A stretch of DNA of 64,000 nucleotides from Pontibacter oryzae (GTDB lineage Bacteria > Bacteroidota > Bacteroidia > Cytophagales > Hymenobacteraceae), in assembly GCF_003576375.1 (NCBI RefSeq), contig NZ_QWGE01000001.1:1-64000 (forward strand). The letters are read 5' to 3'. The notes beneath the pieces were generated by a model. The model made no database searches and had not been told where the DNA came from. It saw only the letters and a program-made list of their open reading frames with translations. A program made the position numbers and the translations under genes. This document shows, piece after piece, positions 10,483 through 54,658 of this stretch. Every line of letters starts with the position of its first letter. Position 1 is the stretch's first letter.

Positions 10483-10486
10483 CCTT

Positions 10487-11662: not shown

Positions 11663-11677
11663 TATTTAATGCCGCGC

Positions 11678-13375
11678 TCATACTTCCTCAACCGCCTTCC
11701 CCTCCAGCCGAAGCTCCTTCTTTAGCCTGGCAGAGAAATTCATGCCCTGCAGATACATACCCGTGCAGCTTTGCTCTTTACAGAGTTCATCAAAAACGCT
11801 GACCAGGAACAGCGGTAGCCTATTAATAGCTTTTGAGTGGCAATACAAATGCATGAGCAGAGGCTCAGCATGATGTTGCTTAGAGCCATTTACCTGCTTT
11901 GCGCTGGAGGCAATGTGCCATATCAAGAACTGCAGCACCCCGTTTTCAGCATAGGAATAGGCTACAGAATTGTGGTCGAAATTTGATTTGGCCTGCTGCA
12001 TAAACTCCCATTTGCAAATGCCGGTACCGTTAGGGGCGTAACTTAGTATATGGGCTATGTTGTTCTTATCTATTGGAATGGACTGGTTTTGATAGACAGA
12101 CCCAGGTGTAAATTTATAAACCAGGTTTTCGAACTTTGGCTTTTCAGAAACCTTTTTTTGGAACAATTTTAGGATGCCCAATGCATGGCCTGCTTTGGTA
12201 GCCGCATCAAGCAGTGATTTGTTAAAACGCTGGTGTAGCGTACGCGGATCGATGCTATGCTTTGCAAGCTTCTCCTTTACTACCTCTTTCAATACAAAGA
12301 AGTTATTGAGCAGAAAAGCTTTGTTTTTGGAGGTTATGCGCAGCTCAACTATGTCTTCGTGAGCGTTTGCATGCCGCTCTTTATACTTATGGCCTCCTGG
12401 GGTCAGGTCTAAATAATCATATCCTTCCGCTTTCAGTTTTAAAGACACCAGATTTAATGCTAGGAAGCTCGGCCCAAATCGGTAATAAACAGGAGAATGA
12501 GCGTTTATACCGGCCCCATGCATACATTTATTCTTACCAATAATGGTGGTTGCGCCTGCAACAAGCTCACCGTTTACCCTTAGTGCGTTTAGTTCGAGTA
12601 ATCCTTTCTTAAACAGGCCAAACAAATACCTCTTTAGTGCCGGGTTTTCCCGGAATGGCATGGTACGGAACATGTACCCCTTCCTAAAATCATGGAAGTT
12701 AGCCAGCGTATTCAGCACAGCAGTAAATTCATCAACATCAGTAATAGTTGAGAACTGCACTGCTCCCATGCGTTTAAACTTGTTGTAATTCGACTTGAAC
12801 TGCTTTTTGTTCAACAACTTATCAACGGATGGATGACTAAAGTTTAGGATTGGCCTTGTAAATAGCCTGATAACGCTACGTTTTGCCCATGCCTGGTTTT
12901 CCTGAAACCATTTAGTTGGCGTTTGGGGCGGAAGGTATTTGAAGAAAATATCCTGGTTCGGATAATTCTGACGTATCAAATCTAAGGCAGCGGCTATAAA
13001 AGTGTTTCCGTTTGTAGGCGTGGCCAACCAAGTATGGTAATACGCGCTCCAACCGCCGGCACCCGCTATACCTAATCCTTTAATATTCTCCGCTAGTGGT
13101 AACACACCCGTTAATGCACTCTCCTGGCGTGCCACTACAAGTATAGGGTTGTGCTTGTCTCCAAAGCATTGGTACCAGCACTTTACATAATCCGGTGACT
13201 GAAAAACTGTTCCCCAAGGGCACACCTCATACAGCTGCCCCCACTCCGCCAGAAACTTACTGCTCTCCATTATTTTGAGAACATCGCCTCCGGTAATTAA
13301 CTCTAAAGAACCTATTAAACTATTGTCAGAAGCTAAAGTCTTTAATTCAGGAAAAAGAATGTCGTTTTTACTCAT
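11678..13375 (-). CDS. CelD/BcsL-type GNAT acyltransferase
   Basis: 565 residues. The central part has the FemAB/GNAT-like fold of the CelD/BcsL family (Acetyltransf_6): FQSPDYVKCWYQCFGDKHNPILVV near 58-81, NPALKRYLFGLFKKGLLELNALRVNGELVAG before 272, and YDYLDLTPGGHKYKERHA near 323. Members acylate sugars or modify exported polysaccharides, which suits the position next to the locus. The C-terminal 150 residues (after about 415) look like a second, diverged GNAT-like domain (ILSYAPNGTGICKWEFMQQA). Transcribed against the glycosyltransferases and 62 nt downstream of the deacetylase gene, so probably co-transcribed with it. Substrate is inference. Confidence 0.75.
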   Translation of the reverse strand: MSKNDILFPELKTLASDNSLIGSLELITGGDVLKIMESSKFLAEWGQLYEVCPWGTVFQSPDYVKCWYQCFGDKHNPILVVARQESALTGVLPLAENIKGLGIAGAGGWSAYYHTWLATPTNGNTFIAAALDLIRQNYPNQDIFFKYLPPQTPTKWFQENQAWAKRSVIRLFTRPILNFSHPSVDKLLNKKQFKSNYNKFKRMGAVQFSTITDVDEFTAVLNTLANFHDFRKGYMFRTMPFRENPALKRYLFGLFKKGLLELNALRVNGELVAGATTIIGKNKCMHGAGINAHSPVYYRFGPSFLALNLVSLKLKAEGYDYLDLTPGGHKYKERHANAHEDIVELRITSKNKAFLLNNFFVLKEVVKEKLAKHSIDPRTLHQRFNKSLLDAATKAGHALGILKLFQKKVSEKPKFENLVYKFTPGSVYQNQSIPIDKNNIAHILSYAPNGTGICKWEFMQQAKSNFDHNSVAYSYAENGVLQFLIWHIASSAKQVNGSKQHHAEPLLMHLYCHSKAINRLPLFLVSVFDELCKEQSCTGMYLQGMNFSARLKKELRLEGKAVEEV

Positions 13376-13437
13376 AAGCTGTAAAAATCAAAAATTTCAA
13401 AACGGACATTAGATATTACATCAATTCCAACTCTCCA

Positions 13438-14547
13438 TTAGTTTTCTTCCACTAAAAGTATGGCATACAGGTTTCTGCATGTATCCGGTAGCTTGTAAAA
13501 TATATACATAATAGTAAGAAACAAGGCATCTGAAATTCCTGACTTAGTACTTGGCTTTAAATAACCCAGCTTGCTTTTACCATAAAGTTTACGGATATCT
13601 TGCTCCTGCAAATTTGGTCTCGGGTTAGCTCTATCGCTTGTCATTAAGCGCCTCACATTGTTCATGAAGGGCTCCCAGATACCTACCATCCTGCATATAG
13701 CTTCTGCAAATGGGGCCCCCTCAATTACTTCGAAGCGAGGCAGCTCATACGTATACTTTAATTTTTCAGGCTTCAGGAATTCAGGGTGTACGGTAAAGGC
13801 CAGCTTATAACTTTGCTGGTAAAGTATAAGGATCTCTCGCGCGGTGTAATCTCCGTTGGGGTAGGCAAAAAACTCAACATCCTTACCTATCCACTGCTCT
13901 AGCTTTCGCTTGGACTGGCTAAGCTCCTCAAATACTTGCTTGTCGGGGCAGTTGTTTAAGATAGGGTGCGTAACGGTATGGGCACCTATGGTGATGTAAG
14001 GAGATGTTGAGATCTTCTGCACTTGCTCTTTCGTCATCGCCTCTCTAGGCAGAGAAATTCTGCGCTTAAGCCTCTCGACCATGGCAAGGCGGTCGGAATT
14101 TGCCACATGCTTTAAATCATCAATGGAAAGTTTGGAAATTCTGCGTTTGTTGCCTTCTTCTATATAAGACCACCAGTAGTTGCCTTGCTCCACGGGGCCC
14201 GTAGATACGAATATAGTAACCGGAACCCCATACTTATCTGCTATATCTGCTATACAAGTTTCGTTTGAGATCCAGCCATCATCTACCGTAAGCACCACGC
14301 CCCCCTTTGGGAATGGCTCCTCCTGTTTGGCGATACCATAAATGTTAGCAGTGCTTAGGAAAACGAAGCCATTACCTTTTAACCATAGCAGGCAGTCTTC
14401 AAACTCTCTGGCAGTGGGTTTATGAAAGTATATGGATAGGATATGCTCACCTGATAGGGCTTTTCTCTTGGCACGCCGAACTAACCCAATCCCTATCATT
14501 AAGTTTGCCAATGCATACGCTAAAATATATCTAACAATACCTTTCAT
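13438..14547 (-). CDS. Polysaccharide deacetylase (NodB/CE4)
   Basis: 369 residues with one N-terminal membrane anchor (about 4-22). NodB motifs are present: VVLTVDDGW with the Asp pair at 89-90 (motif 1), IGAHTVTHP near 188 (H-x3-H, motif 2), and FFAYPNGDY near 216 (motif 3). These bind the divalent metal that drives N- or O-deacetylation of sugars. The C-terminal extension after 270 is not recognised. Next to an acyltransferase and the capsule locus, it probably edits acetylation of the exported polymer (inference). About 270 nt of AT-rich DNA upstream must hold its promoter. Confidence 0.88.
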   Translation of the reverse strand: MKGIVRYILAYALANLMIGIGLVRRAKRKALSGEHILSIYFHKPTAREFEDCLLWLKGNGFVFLSTANIYGIAKQEEPFPKGGVVLTVDDGWISNETCIADIADKYGVPVTIFVSTGPVEQGNYWWSYIEEGNKRRISKLSIDDLKHVANSDRLAMVERLKRRISLPREAMTKEQVQKISTSPYITIGAHTVTHPILNNCPDKQVFEELSQSKRKLEQWIGKDVEFFAYPNGDYTAREILILYQQSYKLAFTVHPEFLKPEKLKYTYELPRFEVIEGAPFAEAICRMVGIWEPFMNNVRRLMTSDRANPRPNLQEQDIRKLYGKSKLGYLKPSTKSGISDALFLTIMYIFYKLPDTCRNLYAILLVEEN

Positions 14548-14816
14548 CTACAAACCGATAGCAGCATTTACTTTATTCCTGAAGTAAATTACAAGGGCGC
14601 CATATGATCCTGGAGTGTATCATACTGGAATTTACAGTTCCGCCTTAAATAAAGAATGTCAGGAAAAATAGCAGAATTAAATTTGTTATAAGACAAGAAA
14701 AATTATACTTTTTTATACTTGTTTTTATAGATTTAGTTTAATTTTTTGACAATTATATACTAATAAAGAGCTGGTCTAAATTAGATAACTTCGATATGCA
14801 TCTTTGGCAGACACCA

Positions 14817-15410
14817 CTAATTTCTAGGCGGATTAATCATAATGTGCGCGCCATGCGTGCCTGGATACATAATCCAAGGCATGCCCGGAGATTCTGCTTT
14901 TAGCGGCAACCCTGTTTGTGCAGCCGTGGCAAAAGGAATATACACTACATAGCGTAGGTAGCCATTGCTTACTTTGCCTGTAGCGTAATCAACGTCATCG
15001 TCGGGGGCAGAATACACAAAGAGGGCAGCAGGTTGAGCGGGCATTTTAAGCTTGCCACTTTTTGCCTCTTGCTCGCGTATGGCAAATATCTCTTTGGTAT
15101 TTTTACCTGCCTCCCGAAGCGTTCTTCCGCGTGCCATAAATGGCCCCAGATCTTGGTGGTAACATGACACGGAGAAGCCTTCCTGCCTTGGATCATCGGC
15201 CAGGCAAATCATTTCATTGGTTCCTTTTCTGAGCTGCACAACTTTGCCCTGCTGGTTATAGCCCAGTACCGTAGCGCCTGCCTTCTTTTCAACGGGGGCA
15301 GCGTGTAGCGCTGCCTCGATCTGTGCGCTTTTTGGCGGCAGGTTAAATTGCGCAAGAGCCTGATAACAGAAACAAAGACTAAGTATCGGAGTGAGTTTAG
15401 CTATATACAT
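14817..15410 (-). CDS. Secreted protein of unknown function
   Basis: 197 residues with a signal peptide (cleavage after about residue 20, CYQALAQ). The mature part is mostly hydrophilic and contains CLADDPRQEGFSVSCYHQDLGPFMARGR, given here only as a landmark between residues 70 and 97, where two Cys could form a disulphide. The end, GMPWIMYPGTHGAHIMINPP, is distinctive. Similar small exported proteins occur in Bacteroidota, but I do not recognise a named domain. It is alone, with 142 nt upstream and 269 nt downstream. Confidence 0.65.
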   Translation of the reverse strand: MYIAKLTPILSLCFCYQALAQFNLPPKSAQIEAALHAAPVEKKAGATVLGYNQQGKVVQLRKGTNEMICLADDPRQEGFSVSCYHQDLGPFMARGRTLREAGKNTKEIFAIREQEAKSGKLKMPAQPAALFVYSAPDDDVDYATGKVSNGYLRYVVYIPFATAAQTGLPLKAESPGMPWIMYPGTHGAHIMINPPRN

Positions 15411-15552
15411 TGGCTTTATACTTTAGAGATTGTGTTAAGAGATTTTAGAATTCCGCAAATCAAACCGTCCTGCTTTAACCATGCAGCTTCAAGGCATTCG
15501 CCCTGCAGCATCAAAGAAACTCGGTGGATCATGAAAGTTTTCACGACTTGGT

Positions 15553-16548
15553 TTAAGTAGGGAGTAATTCGTTTTGAAGACGCTGGCCTTGCTCAAAGTC
15601 ATGTATATTTTGAAGCGTTGTCGTGGCTATGTTTTTCATTGCTTCTGCTGTAAAGAATGCCTGGTGGCCAGTAATTAACACATTGTTAAAAGACAGCAAG
15701 CGCATAAAGACATCATCCTGAATCACCTTATCGGAAAGATCCTCAAAAAAAAGTTCTGCCTCTTCTTCGTAAACATCAAGCCCAAGGTATTTTATCTTTC
15801 CAGTTTTTAGGGCCTTAATCACCGCCTTAGTTTCTAATGTAGCGCCGCGGCTTGTGTTTATCAGCATCACTCCCTTTTTCATTTTAGCGATGGACTCTGC
15901 GTTAATTATGTGGTGTGTTTCCGGTGTTAGCGGGCAGTGCAGCGAAATAATGTCAGACCCCTCATAAAGTGTATCTAAATCTATAAATGTGACACCTGCT
16001 ACTCCAGATTCCTGAGTTATGTAAGGGTCATACGCCTGTACCTTGCACCCCATTCCCACTAATATTTTGGCAGTAACCTTACCGATCTCACCTAACCCGA
16101 TAAGCCCAACGGTTTTACCATGTAGATCGAACCCCAGAAGGCCTTGTAAGGAGAAATTACCCTCTTTAACACGGTTGTAAGCACGGTGGGTCTTTCGGTT
16201 TAGTGTAAGTATAAGGGCTATAGTATGCTCAGCTACGGCATAAGGCGAATAAGCTGGCACTCGAACTATTTTTATGCCGCATGCTGCCGCTTTCTTTAGG
16301 TCCACGTTGTTGTAACCGGCGCAACGCAAAGCCACTAACTGCACCCCAATACCTTGAAGATGCTGCAACACATTAGCATTAACTTGGTCATTTACAAAAA
16401 CGCAGATAGCTTTCGCTCCCGTAGCCATGGCTGCAGTGTTTTCATTTAAAGCAACCTCTTGGAATACAATCTCATTATTGAAGGATGTATTAGCTTCTTC
16501 GAAAAACTGCTGATCATAGGGTTTCGAGCTAAACAGGGTTATTTTCAT
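15553..16548 (-). CDS. ldhA: D-isomer-specific 2-hydroxyacid dehydrogenase, LdhA-like
   Basis: 331 residues from the ATG at 16546-16548; the frame stays open 108 nt further, but MKITLFSSKPYD is the typical family start. It reduces a 2-oxoacid with NADH, probably pyruvate to D-lactate. Seen: LRCAGYNNVDL near 75 (substrate/Arg region typical of LdhA), GLIGLGEIGKVTAKIL near 150 (GxGxxG NAD site), LHCPLTPETHHIIN near 202, LINTSRGATLETKAV near 229, and ITGHQAFFTAEAM near 295 with the catalytic His. Cytoplasmic. Monocistronic by spacing. Confidence 0.88.
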   Translation of the reverse strand: MKITLFSSKPYDQQFFEEANTSFNNEIVFQEVALNENTAAMATGAKAICVFVNDQVNANVLQHLQGIGVQLVALRCAGYNNVDLKKAAACGIKIVRVPAYSPYAVAEHTIALILTLNRKTHRAYNRVKEGNFSLQGLLGFDLHGKTVGLIGLGEIGKVTAKILVGMGCKVQAYDPYITQESGVAGVTFIDLDTLYEGSDIISLHCPLTPETHHIINAESIAKMKKGVMLINTSRGATLETKAVIKALKTGKIKYLGLDVYEEEAELFFEDLSDKVIQDDVFMRLLSFNNVLITGHQAFFTAEAMKNIATTTLQNIHDFEQGQRLQNELLPT

Positions 16549-16810
16549 GCGAGCTAATGTAAAAGTCACATTATTATATAACCCATTTAATAAATAATTG
16601 TTACATCCAAAGCCAGCAAGGTTAGCAATTAAAGCCTCTAACATTTTTCGCGTCACTATTAACCTGAATCTACATATGTGCGAGGCGTAAACTTATTATG
16701 CAGGCCGAAAACTGCGCTAAAAGAAAGTAAACCCATTCAAACCACCCCTTATCGCTTTCTAAATTTTGGGTATATTCTAAACCTCAAGGCGCTAATTAGA
16801 GTGATCGTGT

Positions 16811-16857
16811 AAAAAATAAAAAGCCGCACAACCCAACAAAACAGGTGTGCGGCTTTT
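16811..16857 (-). terminator. Rho-independent terminator of glgX
   Basis: On the - strand, AAAAGCCGCACA (16846-16857) pairs with TGTGCGGCTTTT (16819-16830) over a 15-nt loop, followed by a T-rich run (complement of 16811-16822). It lies 19 nt after the glgX stop. Confidence 0.85.
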
Positions 16858-16875
16858 ACATTAAATCTAATTATT

Positions 16876-19005
16876 CTATTCTAGCGGTTGGTGCAACACA
16901 ACCACGGAACGGGCAGCAACTTCTAGCGTTGCCTTAGCTTCAAACACTTCGCCTTCCTCATCCATTAAGTTTGCTGCAGTATCTAACACTTTTATCCAGG
17001 TTTTACCATATTTCACGGGTGGCAGCCTGTAATTCAGCGACTCATAGTGTGCATTAAAAATCACGTAAAAACTATCGTCCAGGATTTGCTCTCCCTTCGC
17101 GCCTTTGGCATGCAGGCCATGTCCACTCATAAACACAGCCAGAGATTTCGCAAAATCATGGTTCCAGTTCTCATCGTTCATTTCAGTGCCTTCCGGCAAG
17201 AACCAGGCAATGTCTTTCACTTTAGCCCCTTTAATAGGCTCACCCTGGAACCAGCGGCGGCGGTTGAACACAGGGTGCTTTCTGCAAAAGTTTATGAGCT
17301 TGCGCGTAAAGTCCAGCAATTCGGTATCAGCTTGGTTCCAATTCAGCCATGAGATTTCGTTGTCTTGGCAATAAGCATTGTTGTTGCCTCGCTGGGTACG
17401 TCCAAACTCATCACCGGCTACCAGCATGGGCACCCCCTGGCTTAGCATCAGCGTTGTCAGGAAATTACGTTGCTGGCGGGCTCTTAGTGTATTCACTTCT
17501 GCATTCTCTGTCGGACCTTCTTCGCCGCAGTTCCATGATCGGTTATGGCTCTCGCCATCGCGGTTATCTTCTGCATTGGCATCGTTGTGCTTGTTATTGT
17601 AGCTCACCAAGTCACGGAGTGTGAAGCCGTCATGCGCCGTCACGAAATTTATACTAGCCGTTGGGCTTCGGTAATCATCCCGATAAAGGTCCGAACTGCC
17701 TGTAAAGCGCTCTGCAAACTCAGCCAGCATGCTATCCGCTCCGCGCCAGTAGTCCCTGATACAGTCACGGTATTTGCCATTCCACTCGGCCCAGCCTGGC
17801 GGGAAATTACCTACATGGTAGCCACCTTCCCCTACGTCCCAAGGCTCGGCGATAAGCTTAACCTGCGAGATGACCGGGTCCTGGTGAATGATGTCGAAAA
17901 ATGCGCTCAGCCGGTCAACTTCGTGAAGCTCACGCGCCAAAGTAGCGGCCAGGTCAAACCGGAAGCCATCCACGTGCATCTCTAGTATCCAGTAGCGCAA
18001 ACTGTCCATGATAAGCCGCAGCACGTTAGGCAGGTTGGCATTAAGCGTATTGCCTGTGCCCGTATAATCCATGTAAAAGCGCTTATCATCGGTCAGGCGA
18101 TAATAGGCGGCATTATCTACCCCCCGAAACGATAAGGTCGGCCCCATGTGGTTCCCTTCTGCCGTATGGTTATAAACTACGTCAAGTATAACCTCGATAC
18201 CAGCCTGGTGCAGCGCCTTCACCATTTTTTTAAACTCTACCACCTGTTCGCCGCGTGTACCGCTGCTGGAGTAGCGCACGTCTGGCGCAAAGAAACCGAT
18301 GGTATTGTAGCCCCAATAATTGGTTAGGTTACGGTCTGCAAGGTGGCGGTCAGTTATGAAATGGTGGATCGGCATAAGTTCAATAGCCGTTATCCCCAAA
18401 TCCTGCAAATATTTGATAGTGACAGGATGTGCCAGCGCTGCGTATGTCCCCCGAATTCCCTCAGGTATTTCCGGGTGCATTTTGGTGAAACCCTTTACAT
18501 GCGTCTCATAGATGATGGTTTTATGATAAGGCACATTCGGCGACCGATCCCCCTCCCAGTCAAAGCTAGGGTCTATTACCACTGACTTTGGAATGTAAGG
18601 AGCGCTGTCTTGTTTGCTAAAGCTTAAGTCTTCGTCAGGGTGCCCCATTTTGTAGCCAAATAGTGCATCGTGCCACTCTATAGTTCCGGAGATAGCTTTG
18701 GCATAAGGGTCGAGGAGTAATTTATATGGGTTAAAGCGGTGCCCGCAAGAGGGCTCATAGGGGCCATGCACCCGGTAACCATACAACTGACCAGGCTTAA
18801 TGCCCGGCACGTATGCATGCCAAACCTGATGCGTGCGCTCAGTCATACTTATTCTATGAGTCTCCTGCTTATCATCCTCGGCATCAAACAGACAAAGCTC
18901 CACGCCAGTGGCATTCTCAGAGAAAAGGGCAAAGTTTACTCCCTCTCCATCCCAGGTCGAGCCCAATGGGTACGGGTTCCCTGGGTAATTCTCTATTTTC
19001 TTCAT
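16876..19005 (-). CDS. glgX: Glycogen debranching enzyme GlgX (GH13_11)
   Basis: 709 residues, the usual size. N-terminal CBM48 ([19 protein letters not shown] near 11), then the GH13 barrel with all four conserved regions: [11 protein letters not shown] near 276 (I), [10 protein letters not shown] near 347 with the nucleophile Asp (II), [16 protein letters not shown] near 388 with the acid/base Glu (III), and [21 protein letters not shown] near 460 (IV). The [13 protein letters not shown] stretch is a GlgX/isoamylase hallmark. It hydrolyses alpha-1,6 branches of phosphorylase-limit glycogen. No other glycogen gene lies next to it. Confidence 0.96.
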
Positions 19006-19281
19006 GTAGGTGGTTAAATTAAAACTGACTCGGTTTGCATGAGATGTGTAGAACCCTGATTTCCGAGATACTACAGCCTCACATACGCCTACCTTTCTGT
19101 AGTAGAACAGTTATACTTTTAACCTAAGAAATAGTTGGCCTGGCAACCGTAATATGTTTTGTTACCAGATTATACGTCAGAACTACACTGTAAAAAATAT
19201 GGAAGCCTACATACTTAACATAACAAACCAAACACAGCCTTCTGTTTGACAAGACTCTTGGCAGCGTTAGTAATTTGCATC

Positions 19282-20064
19282 TTAGTACTTTGGATGGGCG
19301 AACCTCGGGAAACTATCCAGTTCCTTAATTTCGGATTTATAGGCTGGAGGAAGTATGAGCTCTTTAAGCAGCCACTCGGCTTTAAACTTACGGAAGAACT
19401 TATACAGCGCCAGCACAGGTCTTAGAAGCTGCAGCCGCTGTAGTTTTAAAAGCAAATGCACACGCCGAGGAACAACAAGCACCTGCGCCTGAAGCAAAAG
19501 CCAGTATCGTACCCATCCCAGGTGCTTGCGGTATTGCCTGTACAAGTCAGAAGTATAAGGAGATTGCTCCAGGTTCTGTAGCAAGTGCTGCGCCCGGTCT
19601 GCTTCCCACGTGGCCAGCGAATCCGGTAAGCCCGCTATGCCCATGCGGGTACCAACGCGGTTAAAAATTTGGAAAACCTCTGCACGCTCTTCCAACGTAA
19701 GTCGGCGCTCCAGCAGCTCATACGATCGTATAGAGTAATCGATCAGCATAAAAAGCACATCACGGTAGGCCCAGTCAGGGATGGAGGTGCCGCGCTTTGC
19801 CTCTACGCCTGCATGGATGGCCGCCATACTGTCAATTGCCCGATAAGCATCCGCCTCCTCGGAGAAAACAATCCGGCGCGCATAAGCCACTGTAGAAAAA
19901 AGCCTGCCCAAGGGGTCTGCCGGCAACCGGCCTGTAAAGTATAGCCAATCCACTGCTTTGTTGAGCGCGAACTCTGCCGAGGCTCCCGCAAAAATAAACA
20001 GGATGGTGTCGCTCTTACCCCAAATCTCCCGAACAATTGAACCTGGCTTTACAAAATACTTCAT
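19282..20064 (-). CDS. MpaB/DUF2236-family oxygenase-like protein
   Basis: 260 residues. The start FVKPGSIVREIWGKSD and IFAGASAEFALNKAVDW match the DUF2236 (MpaB) family, relatives of the rubber oxygenase Lcp. DWAYRDVLFMLIDYSIRSYELLE near 100-122 contains part of the helix bundle. In Lcp a haem is bound by a His. Here I see few His in the core, so oxygenase activity is not assured. No partner gene is nearby; 79 nt separate it from the upstream antiporter gene on the same strand, so the two may be co-transcribed. Confidence 0.72.
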   Translation of the reverse strand: MKYFVKPGSIVREIWGKSDTILFIFAGASAEFALNKAVDWLYFTGRLPADPLGRLFSTVAYARRIVFSEEADAYRAIDSMAAIHAGVEAKRGTSIPDWAYRDVLFMLIDYSIRSYELLERRLTLEERAEVFQIFNRVGTRMGIAGLPDSLATWEADRAQHLLQNLEQSPYTSDLYRQYRKHLGWVRYWLLLQAQVLVVPRRVHLLLKLQRLQLLRPVLALYKFFRKFKAEWLLKELILPPAYKSEIKELDSFPRFAHPKY

Positions 20065-49200: not shown

Positions 49201-49282
49201 TGGTAACTTGGAGTGTGCAGTTCCGGTTATCGGCTGTATTTGACTAATAACCGGAATAACTCCTTATATACCATAGTTGTGG
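49201..49282 (+). repeat. attC-like site 0 (left edge of array)
   Basis: R'' TGGTAAC 49201-49207; R' GTTGTGG 49276-49282. Inner stem TTCCGGTTAT (49221-49230) pairs with ATAACCGGAA (49247-49256), with further pairing GGAG/CTCC outside. 82 nt. No gene lies between the nagB terminator and this site, so its own cassette seems lost. Confidence 0.75.
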
Positions 49283-49296
49283 TGCATTTGAAAAAA

Positions 49297-49806
49297 ATGA
49301 CGTTTAAGAAGTATATATCGACAGTGTTAAATGGAATTTTCATTCTGACAACTCTACTTTTTGCCCTTGACGGACTAACTTCATTTGAAATCAAAAGCCA
49401 GGCGATAAAGTCATTTACATATTTTGGAATTATTGTATTGACTCCTCTGACTTTGATTTGGAATCTATGGACTTTTAAAACAGGAAAATGGAAAATAATA
49501 GGCTCGACAATTCCGACATTGACCATAATTGGAATTTTAATAATCGGACATTTAAAAATTGCGTTTTCATCATCCGCTTGGAGAACTCAAAAGGTAATTT
49601 ATCAAAACGGACATTTGGACTTTAAGAAAGTTGAATTTCAAATGCAAGATGTTGGAGCCTTAGGATACAACAAGAGAATTGTAGAAGTAATTTATTTGAC
49701 TGACCTGTTTATGATAGTTAGTCCCGTAGAAAAGGACATTGATGACAGAGTTGAATGGGTAAAAGTTGATAAAGAAGTAAATGAACTCGGACTGAAGTTT
49801 CTATAA
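49297..49806 (+). CDS. Cassette 1: membrane protein of unknown function
   Basis: 169 residues from ATG 49297, 20 nt behind the R' box; longer starts at 49213 would lie inside the attC-like site. Three hydrophobic segments (VLNGIFILTTLLFALDGL, SFTYFGIIVLTPLTLIWNLW and IGSTIPTLTIIGILIIGHL) are followed by a soluble C-terminal part of about 80 residues with RTQKVIYQNGHLDFKKVEFQ. No named family recognised; similar three-helix proteins with a C-terminal beta domain occur in Bacteroidota. Strikingly AT-rich compared with the preceding nagB gene, which supports horizontal origin. Confidence 0.7.
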   Translation: MTFKKYISTVLNGIFILTTLLFALDGLTSFEIKSQAIKSFTYFGIIVLTPLTLIWNLWTFKTGKWKIIGSTIPTLTIIGILIIGHLKIAFSSSAWRTQKVIYQNGHLDFKKVEFQMQDVGALGYNKRIVEVIYLTDLFMIVSPVEKDIDDRVEWVKVDKEVNELGLKFL

Positions 49807-49816
49807 AATTAATAGT

Positions 49817-49996
49817 ATGTCAAGAAGCCATCACGTAACACGGAAAGACTTAAAGGGATTTTCAAAAAAAGAAATTGATGAAATGGTTAATGACCCTGAT
49901 TCATTACTTAATCAATTGGCAGATAAGCGAAAAACAAAAAAGGAAGTTAAAGAAGAAAGAAAAAATAATAAAAACGCACCACAACAAAGCATATAG
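49817..49996 (+). CDS. Cassette 1: small charged protein (59 aa)
   Basis: ATG 49817 lies 10 nt after the preceding stop; TAG at 49994-49996. 59 residues, Lys/Glu/Asp-rich, predicted helical: MSRSHHVTRKDLKGFSKKE, then IDEMVNDPDSLLNQLADKRK and a Lys/Asn tail. No membrane segment. The last codons and the stop fall inside the following attC-like site, as is common for cassette genes. Function unknown; it could be a partner of the upstream membrane protein. Confidence 0.6.
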   Translation: MSRSHHVTRKDLKGFSKKEIDEMVNDPDSLLNQLADKRKTKKEVKEERKNNKNAPQQSI

Positions 49997-50108
49997 CTTA
50001 TGGCGGGTGAACGGCTGCCAGCAAGGTTCGCGCTCCGTAGCCAGCTTTGGTTTCGGTGGACAGAAAAGTGCTTCGAAACCGCCACAAGCCATATGCAAAC
50101 CGTTAGCA
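49979..50108 (+). repeat. attC-like site A (end of cassette 1)
   Basis: R'' CCACAAC 49979-49985; R' GTTAGCA 50102-50108. GCATATAGCTTATGGCGG (from 49989) pairs well with CCGCCACAAGCCATATGC (to 50097). GCACCACAAC (49976-49985) is the exact reverse complement of the cassette opening 49276-49285. At 130 nt it is the longest site, within the range of known attC sites. Confidence 0.85.
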
Positions 50109-50135
50109 GGAATAACTAAAATTAATTAACTATAC

Positions 50136-51203
50136 ATGAAAACACTCTTTACCCTTATTCTCTTACTCACATGTGGCCATTTCATACAAGCACAAACCAT
50201 AGATGCAACAGCCGCAGTCCGCTACTTTGAACTAACCGACAGCCTTCGCCAGGGAAAGCCATTTAGCGATGATTTATGGAAAAGCTTTCTAAGCCTAGAA
50301 GGTAACGCTCAATACATCCAGAACCAAGCATATAATGAGAAGTACCTGAACCGTTTCCGGAAAGACCTTGAAGTGGTGTATATGCCGCAGCACGACAGCA
50401 TCCTACTCGAACGCCTGAAAGACCCTCGGCAGCACTATAATACTTATCTAATACACTTTTACAAAGCCAACGAACCACAGTTGCGTGAGTACCTGCAAAA
50501 CATACTGGCCGATAAGGATGCATACTTGGCTTCGCTATATGCCGAAACATATACCATGTTGCCTAAGCGGATGCACCGTACCAAACCAGAAGCTACTTTA
50601 TACTTTAATGCCTTAGGCAACGACGCGCTGGCAAACAAAGGTAATGTGGTGCTCACGCTGTGGGCGACTTATATGTATGACAAAGTGAAGTATGGCATAT
50701 TAGGTGGCCACGAACTTCACCACCTTGTATGGCAAATGAAAAAATATGATGTGAAAGAGAAAGATAAAAGCCTTCTCCTGATGTTGGGACTGCTGCTAAA
50801 CGAAGGTGCTCCTGACCTAATTGACAAACACTATACTATGGCGGAAAGCATGCCCGAAGATATGAAGTTTGGCAGTTACATGCTGCAACTTGGCGAAGCG
50901 CAGATGCCAAAAGTGGACGAAGCCATAAGGTACATAGCATCAGGCACCAAAACTTATACAAGCCAGGAAATTAAGCAGCAGGTAATTGGAATGAGCGGGC
51001 ATATACCAGGTTTTTATATGGCTGATGTGATTGAGCGTAACGGCCTAAAGAAAAAGCTAATCACCAACATTGACAATCCTTTTGAGTTCGTTTACCTCTA
51101 TAACAAGGCCGCAAAAAAAGACAAGGCAAAACCTTTCCTTTTCTCAAATGAAGCCATTACTTACCTTAAGAAAGTAGAGTCAAGCGCAAGTGTAAAGAAC
51201 TAA
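50136..51203 (+). CDS. Cassette 2: secreted DUF5700-like Zn-dependent metallopeptidase
   Basis: 355 residues with a signal peptide (cleavage after FIQAQ, about residue 20). GILGGHELHHLVWQM near 187 contains the H-E-x-x-H zinc motif, and NEGAPDLIDKHY near 227 supplies a likely third ligand Glu, as in the DUF5700 putative peptidase group. The rest is helical. Expected location is periplasm or outside. It fills cassette 2 alone, 27 nt after the R' box and 4 nt before the R'' box. GC content and codon use are closer to the flanking chromosome than in cassette 1, so its donor may be a related Cytophagales species. Confidence 0.8.
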   Translation: MKTLFTLILLLTCGHFIQAQTIDATAAVRYFELTDSLRQGKPFSDDLWKSFLSLEGNAQYIQNQAYNEKYLNRFRKDLEVVYMPQHDSILLERLKDPRQHYNTYLIHFYKANEPQLREYLQNILADKDAYLASLYAETYTMLPKRMHRTKPEATLYFNALGNDALANKGNVVLTLWATYMYDKVKYGILGGHELHHLVWQMKKYDVKEKDKSLLLMLGLLLNEGAPDLIDKHYTMAESMPEDMKFGSYMLQLGEAQMPKVDEAIRYIASGTKTYTSQEIKQQVIGMSGHIPGFYMADVIERNGLKKKLITNIDNPFEFVYLYNKAAKKDKAKPFLFSNEAITYLKKVESSASVKN

Positions 51204-51206
51204 TCC

Positions 51207-51271
51207 TGCTAACACGGCACAGGCTCCATTCTCGGCTACGCCTCGTTCGCAGCCTGTACAATCCGTTAGCG
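51207..51271 (+). repeat. attC-like site B (end of cassette 2)
   Basis: R'' TGCTAAC 51207-51213; R' GTTAGCG 51265-51271. CAGGCT (51220-51225) pairs with AGCCTG (51251-51256). Central GGCTACGCC at 51234-51242. TCCTGCTAAC (51204-51213) is the exact reverse complement of the cassette opening 50102-50111. 65 nt, the classic size. Confidence 0.88.
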
Positions 51272-51283
51272 TGCATTGGAATC

Positions 51284-51793
51284 ATGAATGAACAACAAGA
51301 GATAGAAGAACTGTTTTCGATGTTTCACGACTTTGAGATAAAGAGCGTGAGCAAATACAGGGAAACTTTGGCCTTAGAAATTGTGATTCCTTGGGGGCAG
51401 GTATGGACTCCTCCCGTGTTGGAATACCAAATAAAAGTTGAGCTGTTGGGGTGTAGAAATTTACTGTGTGAGTACTTTGTGTTCAAAGACGATGAAGCCA
51501 ACAAGTCGAAGCCTATTGCACTTCGGGAAACAGAGAAAAGGACAACAAGCGACCCACAGACAATGGAGAAGTTGGGGCTTGATGTTCAAAGCTATACCTA
51601 TACTCAACCAGAGACTTATGTGCTTCATTGCAACAGTTCGAAAGAAATTGCTGGTGGAGAGTTGACTTTAACAGCAACAGATTACCGAATTTCTAATAGT
51701 AATGGTGAACCTCTAACACTTGACCATCTGAAGCAATGGGCTACTGAATGGTGGGGCAGGATTAAGGAAATGTGGGATGAGCAGAAAAAATAA
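51284..51793 (+). CDS. Cassette 3: cytoplasmic protein of unknown function
   Basis: 169 residues, no signal peptide or membrane helix. ATG lies 12 nt behind the R' box. The sequence alternates acidic and hydrophobic stretches (EIEELFSMFHDFEIKSVSKY, KSKPIALRETEKRTTSDPQT, ISNSNGEPLTLDHLKQWATE) and ends with a Trp-rich helix EWWGRIKEMWDEQKK. It resembles immunity- or SMI1-like small proteins in layout, but I cannot assign a family. The stop lies 6 nt before the next R'' box. Confidence 0.68.
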   Translation: MNEQQEIEELFSMFHDFEIKSVSKYRETLALEIVIPWGQVWTPPVLEYQIKVELLGCRNLLCEYFVFKDDEANKSKPIALRETEKRTTSDPQTMEKLGLDVQSYTYTQPETYVLHCNSSKEIAGGELTLTATDYRISNSNGEPLTLDHLKQWATEWWGRIKEMWDEQKK

Positions 51794-51799
51794 AGAACA

Positions 51800-51878
51800 A
51801 CGTAACGCCGATAAAGCACATGTGTAAAGCTGCGGCTACGTCTTGCTCACCTCATGTACCAACACGTTGTTGTTACCT
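51800..51878 (+). repeat. attC-like site C (end of cassette 3)
   Basis: R'' ACGTAAC 51800-51806; R' GTTACCT 51872-51878. ACATG (51819-51823, left arm) pairs with CATGT (51853-51857, right arm). Central GGCTACGTC at 51834-51842. R'' matches the cassette opening GTTAGCGTGC (51265) only with one gap, the poorest reciprocity of the array. 79 nt. Confidence 0.75.
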
Positions 51879-51904
51879 ATCATAGTAATCTATAGAACTT
51901 TGTC

Positions 51905-51944
51905 TTGTAAACAACCGTTAATGTAATAACTTTGTAATTACATT
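51905..51944 (+). promoter_or_regulatory. Promoter and inverted-repeat operator of the mazEF cassette
   Basis: TTG 51905-51907 and TAACTTTG 51927-51934 are 19 nt apart, the Bacteroidota promoter consensus. An inverted repeat AATGTAAT (51920-51927) / ATTACATT (51937-51944) brackets the -7 element, where an antitoxin-toxin complex could bind to shut off the promoter. Leader to ATG 51959 is about 18 nt. Confidence 0.7.
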
Positions 51945-51958
51945 TAATAAAAAGTGCT

Positions 51959-52204
51959 ATGGAAGTATCAATCATTCAAATAGGCAATTCCAAAGGACTA
52001 CGGTTGACTAAGTCCATTCTAGACAGGTATAACATCAAGGATAAAGTTGAGCTAATACTGGAAAAGGGGCAGATTATTTTAAAGCCAGTTGAGCATCCAA
52101 GGAAAGGCTGGGACAAAGCCTTCAGGAAAATGCACGAGAACGGTGATGACCAGCTTTTACTGGATGATGTGTTTGGTGATGAAAGCTTTGATGAATGGAA
52201 ATAA
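51959..52204 (+). CDS. mazE: Cassette 4: MazE-like antitoxin (AbrB/SpoVT fold)
   Basis: 81 residues. The N-terminal 45 residues have the swapped-hairpin AbrB pattern: VSIIQIGNSKGLRLTKSILD, then VELILEKGQIILKPV. The C-terminal acidic tail (GDDQLLLDDVFGDESFDEWK) is the part that would wrap around the toxin and be degraded first. The stop overlaps the mazF start by 10 nt, giving coupled translation. It is preceded by its own promoter and inverted repeat, which is expected for a toxin-antitoxin cassette that must be expressed wherever it inserts. Confidence 0.92.
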   Translation: MEVSIIQIGNSKGLRLTKSILDRYNIKDKVELILEKGQIILKPVEHPRKGWDKAFRKMHENGDDQLLLDDVFGDESFDEWK

Positions 52205-52518
52205 GCCAGTATGAGATAGTCCTGGTCAATCTGGACCCTACTGTTGGAAGTGAGATACAGAAAACAAGGCCATGTATCGTGATATCCCCCGATGAGATTA
52301 ATCACAACCTAAGAACAGTAGTTATCGCGCCGATGACCACCAAGAGCCGTAGCTATCCTACTCGTGTGAAAGTGAAGCACAACAATCAAGTGGGGTGGGT
52401 CGTGATCGACCAGATAAGGACTATTGACAAAGTCCGCATTGTTAAAGTGCTAGGAATTCTGAACCCTTCAGAAATAGCTTCCTGCAAAAGTGTGATAAAA
52501 GAAACATTCGTGGACTAA
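52195..52518 (+). CDS. mazF: Cassette 4: MazF/PemK-type endoribonuclease toxin
   Basis: 107 residues, the usual length. QYEIVLVNLDPTVGSEIQKT near 5-24 and RPCIVISPDEIN near 25 form the conserved MazF start (here with LDPTVGSE and K-T-R-P). TVVIAPMTTKSRSYPTRV near 43-60 is the second strand pair with the conserved Thr. IRTIDKVRIVKVLGILN near 83 closes the fold. It would cleave mRNA at short sequence motifs when MazE is lost. Starts inside mazE. Confidence 0.94.
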   Translation: MEISQYEIVLVNLDPTVGSEIQKTRPCIVISPDEINHNLRTVVIAPMTTKSRSYPTRVKVKHNNQVGWVVIDQIRTIDKVRIVKVLGILNPSEIASCKSVIKETFVD

Positions 52519-52532
52519 CAAAGAACGACGAT

Positions 52533-52598
52533 AGGTAACCCGGTGCAGCCGTAACCCCTCGCTAAGCTGCGGGCTGCGGCTGCACTAATCCGTTAAGA
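52533..52598 (+). repeat. attC-like site D (end of cassette 4)
   Basis: R'' AGGTAAC 52533-52539; R' GTTAAGA 52592-52598. TGCAGCCG (52544-52551) pairs with CGGCTGCA (52577-52584). GATAGGTAAC (52530-52539) is the exact reverse complement of the cassette opening 51872-51881. 66 nt. Confidence 0.88.
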
Positions 52599-52609
52599 GA
52601 CATATTATT

Positions 52610-52804
52610 ATGAGAGCAAGCTTTATAACTTTTACGGTAATATTAACAGGAGCATTTGTTCGCTGGACCATTAAGGGATTTAAGGGCAAATTTGATGATG
52701 TAATGAGTAGACCATATGAATCATCAAGAAGGTATGATATGAACTTCTTCGTGGGTTCGTTGATAATCCTATCAATTCTCTTCCTTTTTTCAAAGCTCTA
52801 TTAA
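52610..52804 (+). CDS. Cassette 5: small membrane protein (64 aa)
   Basis: ATG 52610, 11 nt behind the R' box. Two hydrophobic segments, about 3-18 (ASFITFTVILTGAFVRW) and 46-63 (FFVGSLIILSILFLFSKL), flank a basic loop KGFKGKFDDVMSRPYESSRR. Overall net positive. No family recognised. Its stop is 4 nt before the next gene, so the two are probably translated together. Confidence 0.6.
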   Translation: MRASFITFTVILTGAFVRWTIKGFKGKFDDVMSRPYESSRRYDMNFFVGSLIILSILFLFSKLY

Positions 52805-52808
52805 GCCT

Positions 52809-53183
52809 ATGCCCGCTATTTTTCTGCTTTCTGCTTCGAATCGGGATGTTATCCAACTCTTTTTCTTTATTGTTTTCATTGTGTTAATTTATTTATTCTA
52901 TGCAGCAATTAGAGTCGCTGGAGTAAGTGTATTGAAATACCTTTCAGCAGATGTAAGTGATCCTGTAAAGTATTTGACGTTGGTCGTTCACTTGCTCAGT
53001 TCTTTAATAAGTTCATTACTGTTGCCTAATAATGTTTTAGTAACTTTCTCACTCTTTAACAACCTGTATCGCAATGGAATATGGGTACCGATTTCAATTC
53101 TTGTGCTTCTTTTCCTTCACTTGATAATTGTTGGATGGGCTTTTAGTGCTTTTTTTCTGTTGGTTGATAAATTGAAGGCATAG
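52809..53183 (+). CDS. Cassette 5: polytopic membrane protein (124 aa)
   Basis: Three or four hydrophobic helices (VIQLFFFIVFIVLIYLFYAA, LTLVVHLLSSLISSLLLP, ISILVLLFLHLIIVGWAF and the following stretch). Polar loops are short; DPVKYLT precedes helix 2. No recognisable domain. Follows the 64-aa protein by 4 nt, which suggests a two-component membrane pair. Codon use is AT-rich, like cassette 1. Confidence 0.62.
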   Translation: MPAIFLLSASNRDVIQLFFFIVFIVLIYLFYAAIRVAGVSVLKYLSADVSDPVKYLTLVVHLLSSLISSLLLPNNVLVTFSLFNNLYRNGIWVPISILVLLFLHLIIVGWAFSAFFLLVDKLKA

Positions 53184-53203
53184 CTTTTAAGAGAAGAAAG
53201 TGT

Positions 53204-53335
53204 ATGTGTACAGGTAAGCAAAATGAGTCTGGAGTGTCTGAGCCACAAATACAAAATATAGAAGTAGAATTACAGCCTCCTAACCACGTATATGCTTCAG
53301 CTACGCCTAGCACATCGTCTACACCAATCCGTTAG
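53204..53335 (+). CDS. Cassette 5: possible 43-aa peptide ending inside attC
   Basis: ATG 53204 follows a purine-rich AAGAGAAGAAAG; TAG 53333-53335 lies in the R' box itself. The peptide starts MCTGKQNESGVSEPQIQNIE and ends in Ser/Thr/Pro residues dictated by the attC arms. It may be real, or chance; the first half is not repeat-derived. Confidence 0.3.
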   Translation: MCTGKQNESGVSEPQIQNIEVELQPPNHVYASATPSTSSTPIR

Positions 53336-53337
53336 GC
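53278..53337 (+). repeat. attC-like site E (end of cassette 5)
   Basis: R'' TCCTAAC 53278-53284; R' GTTAGGC 53331-53337, a perfect GTTRRRY match. Central AGCTACGCC at 53299-53307. GCCTCCTAAC (53275-53284) matches the reverse complement of the cassette opening GTTAAGAGAC (52592) at 8 of 10. 60 nt. Confidence 0.82.
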
Positions 53338-53352
53338 GATATTTATCTTAAA

Positions 53353-53940
53353 ATGAAAGCAATACTGTTTCTACTTATACTCCTTTTGACCATCAGCTAT
53401 GCGCAGTCACAAGGGGTTGATGAAGACTTGGAGAAAATTGCAAGGTCTATGCGTATGGTATACCTTGACTTGGATAGTTTATCTGAAGCTCATGCTGATT
53501 CACTTATAGCTGACAAAGGCGTGGAGCATGTTATAATATTTAAGTCAGGTAATGTTGGTATTGATTTCCCTTATTAGGATAAAAAGAATTGTAGTTGCGA
53601 GGATAACGGTACAGACACACGCCTCATCTGATAGCAAGGTCAGAAATATTATCTGAAAAGAATCAGATGTTGTTCTAATAAAGTAGATGAGTTTAGGAAT
53701 ACTGGTTTATATGAAGAGTTGATAGACAACAGAAGTAAAATATTCTCTTCCACTCGCAAATTCAATATCAAGGCAAAATATTATTCCTACAAAACACTAA
53801 TCCTTATAACATCAGAAGGAAAGCAGGAAGTGAGCAAGGTAGACTACACCGATGAGGACAACAAGTACAGACAAAATAACTTGAAGCAAGCAACTAAAAT
53901 CTATATAGGTTTACTTTCAGCAGAGATATATAAACATTGA
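53353..53940 (+). pseudogene. Cassette 6: exported protein gene broken by three in-frame stops
   Basis: One frame runs from ATG 53353 to TGA 53938-53940 (196 codons) but holds TAG 53575-53577, TGA 53629-53631 and TAG 53632-53634. Segment 1 (74 aa) has a signal peptide (ISYAQSQ) and GVDEDLEKIARSMRMVYLDL. After the first stop the frame still looks coding (DKKNCSCEDNGTDTRLI), and after the stop pair it reads QGQKYYLKRIRCCSNKVDEF and KVDYTDEDNKYRQNNLKQ to the end. All three stops can be reached by single C-to-T or G-to-A changes. I read this as one decayed gene. Two separate short genes are possible but less likely, since the second part has no ATG start. Confidence 0.75.
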
Positions 53941-53945
53941 AAACC

Positions 53946-54006
53946 GCCTATCAATCTGCAGCACCAAGGCTACGCCAGCCCATCGACTGCATTAATAAAG
54001 TTGGCG
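53946..54006 (+). repeat. attC-like site F (end of cassette 6)
   Basis: R'' GCCTATC 53946-53952 (degenerate, expected GCCTAAC); R' GTTGGCG 54000-54006. CTGCAG region (53956-53961) pairs with CTGCAT/TGCAG-like sequence near 53987-53992. Central GGCTACGCC at 53968-53976. ACCGCCTATC matches the reverse complement of cassette opening 53331-53340 at 8 of 10. The degenerate box fits with decay of this cassette. 61 nt. Confidence 0.78.
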
Positions 54007-54026
54007 GTAAAACAGAATTATACTAA

Positions 54027-54584
54027 ATGAAGAAACTCTTACTCTTTGTAAGCTTGCTTTATACTTTTCAGTCCAATGCACAGAACATCAAAAAGATTCT
54101 GACAGCTTCTGAACTAGACTCGGTACAGCAGGGCATCGTTCTCTACAAGGGCGTTGAAAAGAAAACTGCTATGGATTTCGGAGGGTTTGAAGGTGAAATT
54201 GCTGTCAGAAAAATCAACAGCAAAATTTCATATCACTTCATCGGAACAGCTAACAAGTATAACAGTAAGCGGGAACTGATAGAATCAATGGAGATGGATA
54301 GCTTGGGGTATTTGCAGGCATACTACCAAATACTACCAGAAGACGGAGCCATCTTTGATTGTGTTTATGAATACAAAAGAATTAACGGAACACTTTATAG
54401 ACTTGAATCGCAGAAGCTATACTATGAACCAGACAGGTTATGGCAGGAAGGCTTTAGGTATAGAAAAATGACAGATGGCTTTGCTGATAAATTCACATCG
54501 CCAAACAAAAGATGTGGCAATTGGACATTCTATACTAGGAACGGTGAAGTTGAGAAAACAGAAGATTATGGAGACCCAAAGTAA
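54027..54584 (+). CDS. Cassette 7: secreted protein of unknown function
   Basis: 185 residues with a signal peptide (cleavage after QSNAQ, about residue 19). The mature part is hydrophilic with regular beta-like stretches (GGFEGEIAVRKINSKISYHF, AIFDCVYEYKRINGTLYRLE, GNWTFYTRNGEVEKTEDYGD). The last resembles MORN-like/antitoxin repeat motifs (GxWxFYxxNGxxxxxxxY) found in Bacteroidota secreted proteins, a weak hint only. ATG is 20 nt behind the R' box, stop 7 nt before the R'' box, so the gene fills its cassette as expected. Confidence 0.68.
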   Translation: MKKLLLFVSLLYTFQSNAQNIKKILTASELDSVQQGIVLYKGVEKKTAMDFGGFEGEIAVRKINSKISYHFIGTANKYNSKRELIESMEMDSLGYLQAYYQILPEDGAIFDCVYEYKRINGTLYRLESQKLYYEPDRLWQEGFRYRKMTDGFADKFTSPNKRCGNWTFYTRNGEVEKTEDYGDPK

Positions 54585-54591
54585 GTTCTGC

Positions 54592-54658
54592 CGCCAACAA
54601 TGCTCAGCCTTTACGCTCGGTTTCGCCTTCCCCATCGAATGCACGAGTAACGTTAAGC
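54592..54658 (+). repeat. attC-like site G (right edge of array)
   Basis: R'' CGCCAAC 54592-54598; R' GTTAAGC 54652-54658, a perfect GTTRRRY match. TGCCGCCAAC (54589-54598) matches the reverse complement of the cassette opening GTTGGCGGTA (54000) at 9 of 10. R'' does not pair with its own neighbouring R' (GTTAAGC), as expected when R' belongs to the next, lost, cassette. 67 nt. Confidence 0.85.

Follow-up and report, generated by a model that had tools for sequence, protein, structure and literature searches.

Among the systems described so far, the sedentary integron with a canonical integron integrase (IntI) is one of the closest to the array of gene cassettes that we report here from Pontibacter oryzae (contig NZ_QWGE01000001.1, positions 1 to 64,000 of the forward strand; this whole 64-kb stretch is called the window below). 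The two systems have in common a tyrosine recombinase gene, an adjacent attI-like site, and co-directional cassettes with attC-like sites, as well as a GTT boundary, pairing between the R'' and R' boxes of one cassette, unequal spacers, and a cargo of toxin–antitoxin and unknown genes. They differ in that the recombinase considered here lacks the additional domain of IntI (the patch, or I2), lies outside the IntI clade, and carries one or two N-terminal domains with some likeness to HARP. Furthermore, the attC sites seldom have an extra base in the left arm, the integrase is mostly co-oriented with the cassettes, and copies of the attI-like site head several integrase-less arrays in one genome.

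The additional domain is presented as a defining trait of integron integrases and as needed for recombination, and the standard finder demands its profile (PMC9668308); integrases were selected by this domain in two studies (PMC9668308 and PMC2426708). Another study states that I2 has been identified nowhere else and describes a chicken-and-egg problem (PMC4792948). In canonical attC sites, extrahelical bases steer the choice of strand; their removal lowers specificity, and the reaction still proceeds (PMC2727003). A single complete integron of Bacteroidetes, from Salinibacter ruber, was reported with IntegronFinder 2.0, in addition to those from Chlorobi and Ignavibacteriae (PMC9024848). An “Integron-like” subgroup of tyrosine recombinases, in which the insertion is not fully conserved, was defined by Smyshlyaev et al. 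2021 (PMC8138268), and the available part of that paper draws no link to attI, attC, or cassette arrays. In the open-access literature, with preprints outside the scope, we found no description of patch-free integrons of Bacteroidia, as judged by titles or the beginnings of abstracts.

The array spans positions 49213–54658 of the window and consists of an attI-like head and seven cassettes, with every gene on the + strand. An earlier note, made from the sequence letters, had described seven integron-type cassettes without an integrase, separated by eight attC-like sites. The eight inverted-repeat sites are indeed present between co-directional small open reading frames (ORFs), at the positions stated in the note; sites B–H are attC sites, and the leftmost turned out to be the attI-like head. 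The seven cassettes are backed by the pairing of their own boxes, by matches to an attC model, and by a cassette found at several places in the genome. We consider it highly probable (roughly 0.87) that the seven cassettes of the window form an integron-type array headed by a copy of an attI-like site and likely served in trans by a patch-free, 492-aa tyrosine recombinase encoded about 190 kb away. Judging from sequence comparisons, this recombinase likely captures and shuffles cassettes. The phrase “without an integrase” is therefore right for the window and wrong for the chromosome, where the recombinase gene lies with an attI-like site and an attC array at C1:240.9–242.4 kb. The genome search that had been proposed yielded no canonical intI, as the model TIGR02249 stayed below its cut-off, and it did yield further arrays: 32 attC matches at E ≤ 1 on 7 of the 9 contigs, seven of these matches being sites on which the model described below was trained.

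Four proteins of the genome pass the Pfam cut-off for tyrosine recombinases, namely one XerD-like, one XerC-like, one of 492 aa, and one of 411 aa. The gene for the 492-aa protein is located at C1:240883–242358 on the − strand of the window's contig; downstream on the same strand come an attI core and its first cassette, and then more attC sites. Its product was the genome's best match to the integron-integrase model TIGR02249 (200 bits), whose cut-off of 265 was reached by no protein of the genome, and its alignment skips positions 178–241 of the model and residues 207–247 of chain 2a3v. Between two fixed flanking points, the patch region measured 60–62 residues in the family (68 of 68 rows), 65–69 in Xer proteins, and 103 in canonical IntI (12 of 12); the additional domain specific to IntI is thus missing from the 492-aa family. 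The columns R332, K357, H421, R424, H447, and Y456, which we take to be the catalytic RKHRH and Y of a tyrosine recombinase, were invariant in alignment A5 (62 rows). In a tree of 102 rows, the 12 IntI rows formed a clade with 100/100 support, and no member of the 492-aa family fell inside it. Archaeal XerA and bacterial XerC and XerD share with the protein a common fold, the catalytic core, and the lack of a patch; unlike them, it has an N-terminal extension, adjoins an attI-like site and cassette arrays, and scores below the curated Xer cut-offs (XerA_Arch, 207 against 220 bits; XerC, 182 against 335; XerD, 181 against 330). The cut-offs are strict in this case, as even the XerC-like protein of this genome fails to reach the one for XerC (316 against 335). 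The N-terminal part weakly resembles HARP, which was absent among the matches listed in further searches of the recombinase.

The window is linked to this recombinase by its head. The 22-nt attI core at 49247–49268 occurred exactly at 5 places in the genome and with 3 mismatches at a sixth (control, 0), and one of the copies lies directly downstream of the 492-aa recombinase gene. A conserved core beside a recombinase gene, followed by the first cassette box, is what would be expected of an attI site, and we regard these cores as putative attI sites. Cores adjoining the recombinase gene were also seen by eye in Hymenobacteraceae, and 8 Flavobacteriaceae-type loci had another attI-like form with TATAAC before the first box. 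The heads take two forms, one found beside the recombinase and at C7:184 kb, and the other in four satellite heads including that of the window. At C7:184 kb (C7:184137), the homology extends over 174 nt at 73.6%; of the recombinase gene it covers only the last ~19 nt, together with the 150 nt downstream. The satellite heads (C5:369608, C6:80684, C1:1006743, and 49213–49275 of the window) have ~65 nt in common, including a left inverted-repeat arm that the head next to the recombinase gene does not have. At three loci (L022, L024, and L265, the last in genome G327), the recombinase gene is interrupted or fragmentary, and just ~19 nt of it remain before the attI core at C7:184 kb. Such genes are a possible route to integrase-less arrays.

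As the interval between the flank genes contains seven attC and lacks an ORF for an integrase, the array falls under the definition of a cluster of attC sites lacking integron integrases (CALIN), that is, at least two attC and no integrase in the cluster. It differs from a CALIN in its attI-like head and in the likely integrase elsewhere in the genome. CALINs are common (PMC9024848), and an ordinary CALIN left by a lost canonical IntI integron, with the 492-aa recombinase unrelated to it, would fit the window's lack of a recombinase and the two decayed left boxes described below. We regard this origin as improbable: the array has at its head the attI core found beside the 492-aa gene, another place in the genome has a cassette directly following this core, the extra base of the phylum's canonical arrays is seldom found in attC beside the 492-aa family, and canonical IntI is missing over the cut-off from this genome. 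Among 295 genomes of the class, just one had canonical IntI above the cut-off; a phylum sample of 296 genomes gave 84, one of them from the class. In the single class genome concerned (locus L217), the best match to the 492-aa family was Xer-like (E = 1.4e-53).

The attC sites were modeled with a covariance model (R1) built from 26 sites, including C, E, F, G, and H of the window and two beside the recombinase. On the window, R1 matched 7 of the 8 sites, all on the + strand, and nothing else up to E = 5; attC B was weak (E = 2.9) and was recovered by a stem search. All seven attC have the arms R'', L'', L', and R' with an unpaired central spacer, in the order AAC box, 3-nt spacer, L'' arm, variable loop, L' arm, 5–7 nt spacer, and GTT box, and the L stem covaries. 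The features of the array are as follows.

49213–49275, + strand: site A, attI-like array head; inverted repeat TTCCGGTTAT...ATAACCGGAA, then the attI core; cassette 1 opens at GTT 49276
49276–50101, + strand: cassette 1; ORF at ~49297–49806 (no Pfam match over cut-off) and ORF at 49817–49996 (59 aa)
49979–50108, + strand: attC B, 130 nt, with a large inner structure; 10-bp stem, spacers 3/5, L-stem A.C at positions 6 and 11
50102–51264, + strand: cassette 2; ORF at 50136–51203 (355 aa), DUF5700 putative zinc peptidase (PF18958, E = 9.6e-74); own boxes 7/7 beyond GTT
51207–51271, + strand: attC C; R1 61.7 bits, training-set member
51265–51871, + strand: cassette 3; ORF at 51284–51793 (169 aa), no Pfam match; own boxes 3/7 or 4/7, depending on the placement of the decayed end box
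51800–51878, + strand: attC D; decayed left box (GAT for AAC), GTTGTTGTT before the right box; R1 E = 1.8e-6 at 51806–51872, outside the training set
51872–52591, + strand: cassette 4; MazE-like antitoxin at 51959–52204 (PF04014, E = 0.0068, below cut-off); own boxes 7/7
52195–52518, + strand: second gene of cassette 4; MazF/PemK-like toxin (PF02452, E = 2.7e-29)
52533–52598, + strand: attC E; R1 53.8 bits, training-set member; A.C at L-stem position 11
52592–53330, + strand: cassette 5; ORFs at 52610–52804 and 52809–53183, no Pfam match; own boxes 5/7
53278–53337, + strand: attC F; R1 53.7 bits, training-set member
53331–53999, + strand: cassette 6; ORFs at 53353–53577 (no Pfam match over cut-off) and 53719–53940; own boxes 6/7
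53946–54006, + strand: attC G; left box ATC for AAC; R1 40.4 bits, training-set member
54000–54651, + strand: cassette 7; ORF at 54027–54584 (185 aa), no Pfam match; own boxes 6/7
54592–54658, + strand: attC H, final site of the array; R1 55.2 bits, training-set member

The AAC left and GTT right boxes that the earlier note had seen at all sites hold for most of them, except for the decayed left boxes of D and G. Its reading of the cargo as toxin–antitoxin genes and small unknown genes agrees with the MazE/MazF-like pair and with several ORFs that have no Pfam match; besides the DUF5700 putative peptidase, the remaining products are unknown small proteins, some of them membrane-like by eye. 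The ordinary flank genes it mentioned are present in the ORF list, namely a gene reading as nagB-LmbE on one side and a GH3 glycosidase-like gene on the other (names by eye).

If a cassette has existed as a circle, its start box should pair with its own end box, and this pairing was seen. In the window, the start boxes and the reverse complements of the end boxes of the same cassettes were alike at 41 of 49 positions beyond GTT/AAC, whereas the two boxes facing each other across one site (sites B–G) agreed at just 16 of 42; the own-cassette assignment was the best of 5040 permutations. Shorter boxes gave 24/28, with 4 of 5040 permutations at least as good, and longer boxes gave 46/63 (1 of 5040). 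In cassette 1, the start box GTTGTGGTGC is the reverse complement of the end box GCACCACAAC at 10 of 10 positions. Over eight arrays of the genome, including that of the window, own-cassette pairing reached 107/154 and across-site pairing 66/210; this count covers places with at least two neighbouring matches, single matches being excluded, and some of its low values are off-by-one placements. The corresponding values in relatives were 35/35 vs 19/42 (L031) and 48/56 vs 29/63 (L016), and in Flavobacteriaceae-type sites an exact 8-nt partner box was present upstream in 30 of 36.

Footprints of cassette movement were also found. A cassette beginning GTTGGCCGTGATTGGG occurs at four places (C1:240k, C4:548k, C7:184k, and C5:369.6k), the C5 copy directly behind an attI core and the other three behind three different attC. 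The copies are 89–100% identical over 81–464 nt, and two of them run into contig ends. Homology begins exactly at GTT in the three comparisons against the attI-borne C5 copy, and 2, 2, and ~18 nt before GTT in the three comparisons among the attC-borne copies. An attC resembling the closing site of this cassette is present at the start of contig C6. We fetched 12 relatives of the genus, in 11 of which the GH3 gene was in reach, and the gene order and spacers of the array were not fixed in them: the interval between nagB and GH3 contained an attI-like head in 0 of 11 and no attC in 10 of 11, the remaining one (L215) having one marginal match (E = 0.018). In the closest relative (94% in the nagB protein; L205, 363–6811), three genes, RND efflux operon-like by eye, replace the array, and the interval seems to be a variable spot. 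These data bear on the account that no recombination system exists and that the sites are terminators or dispersed palindromes between the genes of a fixed operon. The sites are imperfect palindromes between co-directional genes, as this account says, but the box pairing follows the cassette and not the site, one cassette lies in four contexts and is cut at GTT, and the array was not found at this place in 11 relatives; we give this account next to no credence.

The 492-aa family was widespread in Bacteroidota among the matches listed, and we surveyed the loci of the best 80 of 579 relatives. Around these loci, all 46 R1 matches were downstream of the gene on the + strand, which makes up 14.7% of the strand-bases (16 of 16 in the non-training loci). 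With a second covariance model (R2, E ≤ 0.01), 90 of 94 matches were downstream on the + strand and 4 upstream on the − strand (33 and 4 of 37 in non-training loci). The four upstream matches belong to two Balneolaceae loci and one Paludibacteraceae metagenome-assembled genome (MAG) (L050–L052), in which recombinase and array are divergent, a layout common in canonical integrons. In L050 (one site) and L052 (three sites), the stem has an A.C mismatch at position 11. An attC match was present in 36 of the 80 loci, and in 32 of the 45 with at least 1.5 kb downstream. Of the 80 loci, 49 had a contig end < 3 kb downstream of the recombinase match and 5 had one at that distance upstream, a clustering that may arise because repeats would break contigs. 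Within the flanks of 13 canonical IntI loci, R2 found no match.

Among 60 Hymenobacteraceae genomes, in which the recombinase was counted at E ≤ 1e-100, 31 had both recombinase and attC, 0 the recombinase alone, 7 attC alone, and 22 neither (Fisher p = 1.1e-10). Two of the seven attC-alone genomes had a diverged full-length recombinase (39–41%), one had fragments, and four had Xer-level matches only. These four genomes would suit the idea that XerC and XerD, the chromosome-dimer recombinases, move the cassettes, with the 492-aa protein being accessory or a bystander; additionally, stems without extra bases resemble double-stranded sites, as in the Xer-moved CTXphi (PMC4792948). However, XerC and XerD are encoded on other contigs here, the arrays adjoin and co-occur with the 492-aa family, and no attC was seen in 22 of 60 genomes without the family, six of which were checked and have Xer-level matches. 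We judge a Xer-driven system to be quite unlikely, slightly more so than a relict CALIN.

The attC stems set the system apart from canonical integrons. We applied one site finder alike to the canonical arrays of the phylum and to arrays beside patch-free recombinases. A left-arm extra base was found in 25 of 36 canonical-array sites and in 6 of 87 sites beside patch-free recombinases (Fisher p = 2.6e-12, in a test where sites of one locus are not independent); with a stricter threshold, the counts were 2/5 and 4/70, respectively. In the source genome, the extra base was present in 0 of 11 attC, one site being counted twice. The attC of the patch-free family thus seldom carry the extrahelical-base signature of the R''–L'' arm. 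In 66 unbulged sites, 118 mismatches were A.C or C.A on the top strand, and so T.G or G.T when read on the bottom strand; 7 had the opposite polarity, and 49 were of other types. Position 11 of the L stem was A.C in 56 of the 66 sites, from 23 loci. In the canonical unbulged sites (n = 7), the two polarities were counted 1 and 0 times. The covariation score and the number of paired cells of the L stems were reached in 0 of 500 shuffles in both alignments. As had been proposed as a check, the strands were folded, and the bottom strand was more stable in 7 of 7 window attC and in 75 vs 12 of the relatives' sites, with a background on the − strand that leans the same way (19 vs 7). The polarity of the wobble pairs could do the strand steering in place of extrahelical bases.

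Several observations weigh against our interpretation. At the thresholds used, R1 and R2 matched nothing in 13 of the 45 relatives whose downstream flank reached 1.5 kb or more; seven of the 13 loci were from Bradyrhizobium, Burkholderiales, or archaea, and L031 had another attC type. The latter locus (10001–19597, from a Bacteroidetes MAG) has 122–127 nt attC beside a family recombinase, and both models miss them. In an evenly drawn sample of the class, an R2 match was present in 10 of the 30 best loci (flanks ≤ 1.5 kb), which include the source genome's own locus; nine of the ten had E ≤ 5.4e-5 and one 0.019, and all matches were downstream of the gene and co-oriented with it. The co-occurrence of recombinase and attC follows genera, and the four Hymenobacteraceae genomes with attC and Xer-level recombinases only (G336, G348, G303, and G322) may have lost the integrase or use another enzyme. 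The tree left open whether the family is the sister of IntI (80/79 and 80/88). In alignment A2, two further covariation measures were not clearly above the shuffles (24/500 and 296/500). The N-terminal likeness to HARP (PF07443) is weak, with a best Pfam E of 0.0011 in 5 of 24 members, as many as matched DUF5710; the best HARP match by PDB profile (4o66, E = 0.2) and the Foldseek probability of 0.66 are weak as well. Finally, the decayed left boxes of attC D and G may have locked cassettes in place, leaving the array partly frozen.

In its sequence features, the system agrees with an integron in each test that we made apart from those of the patch, the extrahelical bases, and the IntI clade; it therefore reads as a separate, patch-free integron type, mostly without extrahelical bases and distinct from the canonical IntI integron. 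By analogy with canonical integrons, the recombinase would cut within GTT and join a folded single-stranded attC (bottom strand) to a double-stranded attI. Without patch and extrahelical bases, the choice of strand would rest on the polar mismatch, which gives A.C in the top-strand hairpin and a T.G wobble in the bottom-strand hairpin, and the N-terminal HARP-like domain or domains may assist in binding the folded substrate. The array in the window is probably a satellite, formed either when an attI copy gathered cassettes through an integrase working in trans or when an integron lost its integrase gene. For the broader proposal of a large Bacteroidota lineage with a patch-free HARP-domain integrase, hairpin sites marked by T.G wobbles, and one integrase for many scattered attI-headed arrays, the odds tilt slightly in favor.

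If this is true, cassette exchange would be common in the class: of the 295 genomes sampled, 145 contained a member of the family at E ≤ 1e-85, a count that sets the maximum for this kind of integrase. Because the standard finder needs the profile of the additional domain, patch-free integrons should escape detection as complete integrons, and standard searches would probably miss integrons in many Bacteroidota. A second way of choosing the attC strand would exist, and the coevolution question raised by Escudero et al. 2016 (PMC4792948) would become directly testable. The patch-free state could be the ancestral one, which would answer the chicken-and-egg problem of the extrahelical bases and the domain that reads them.

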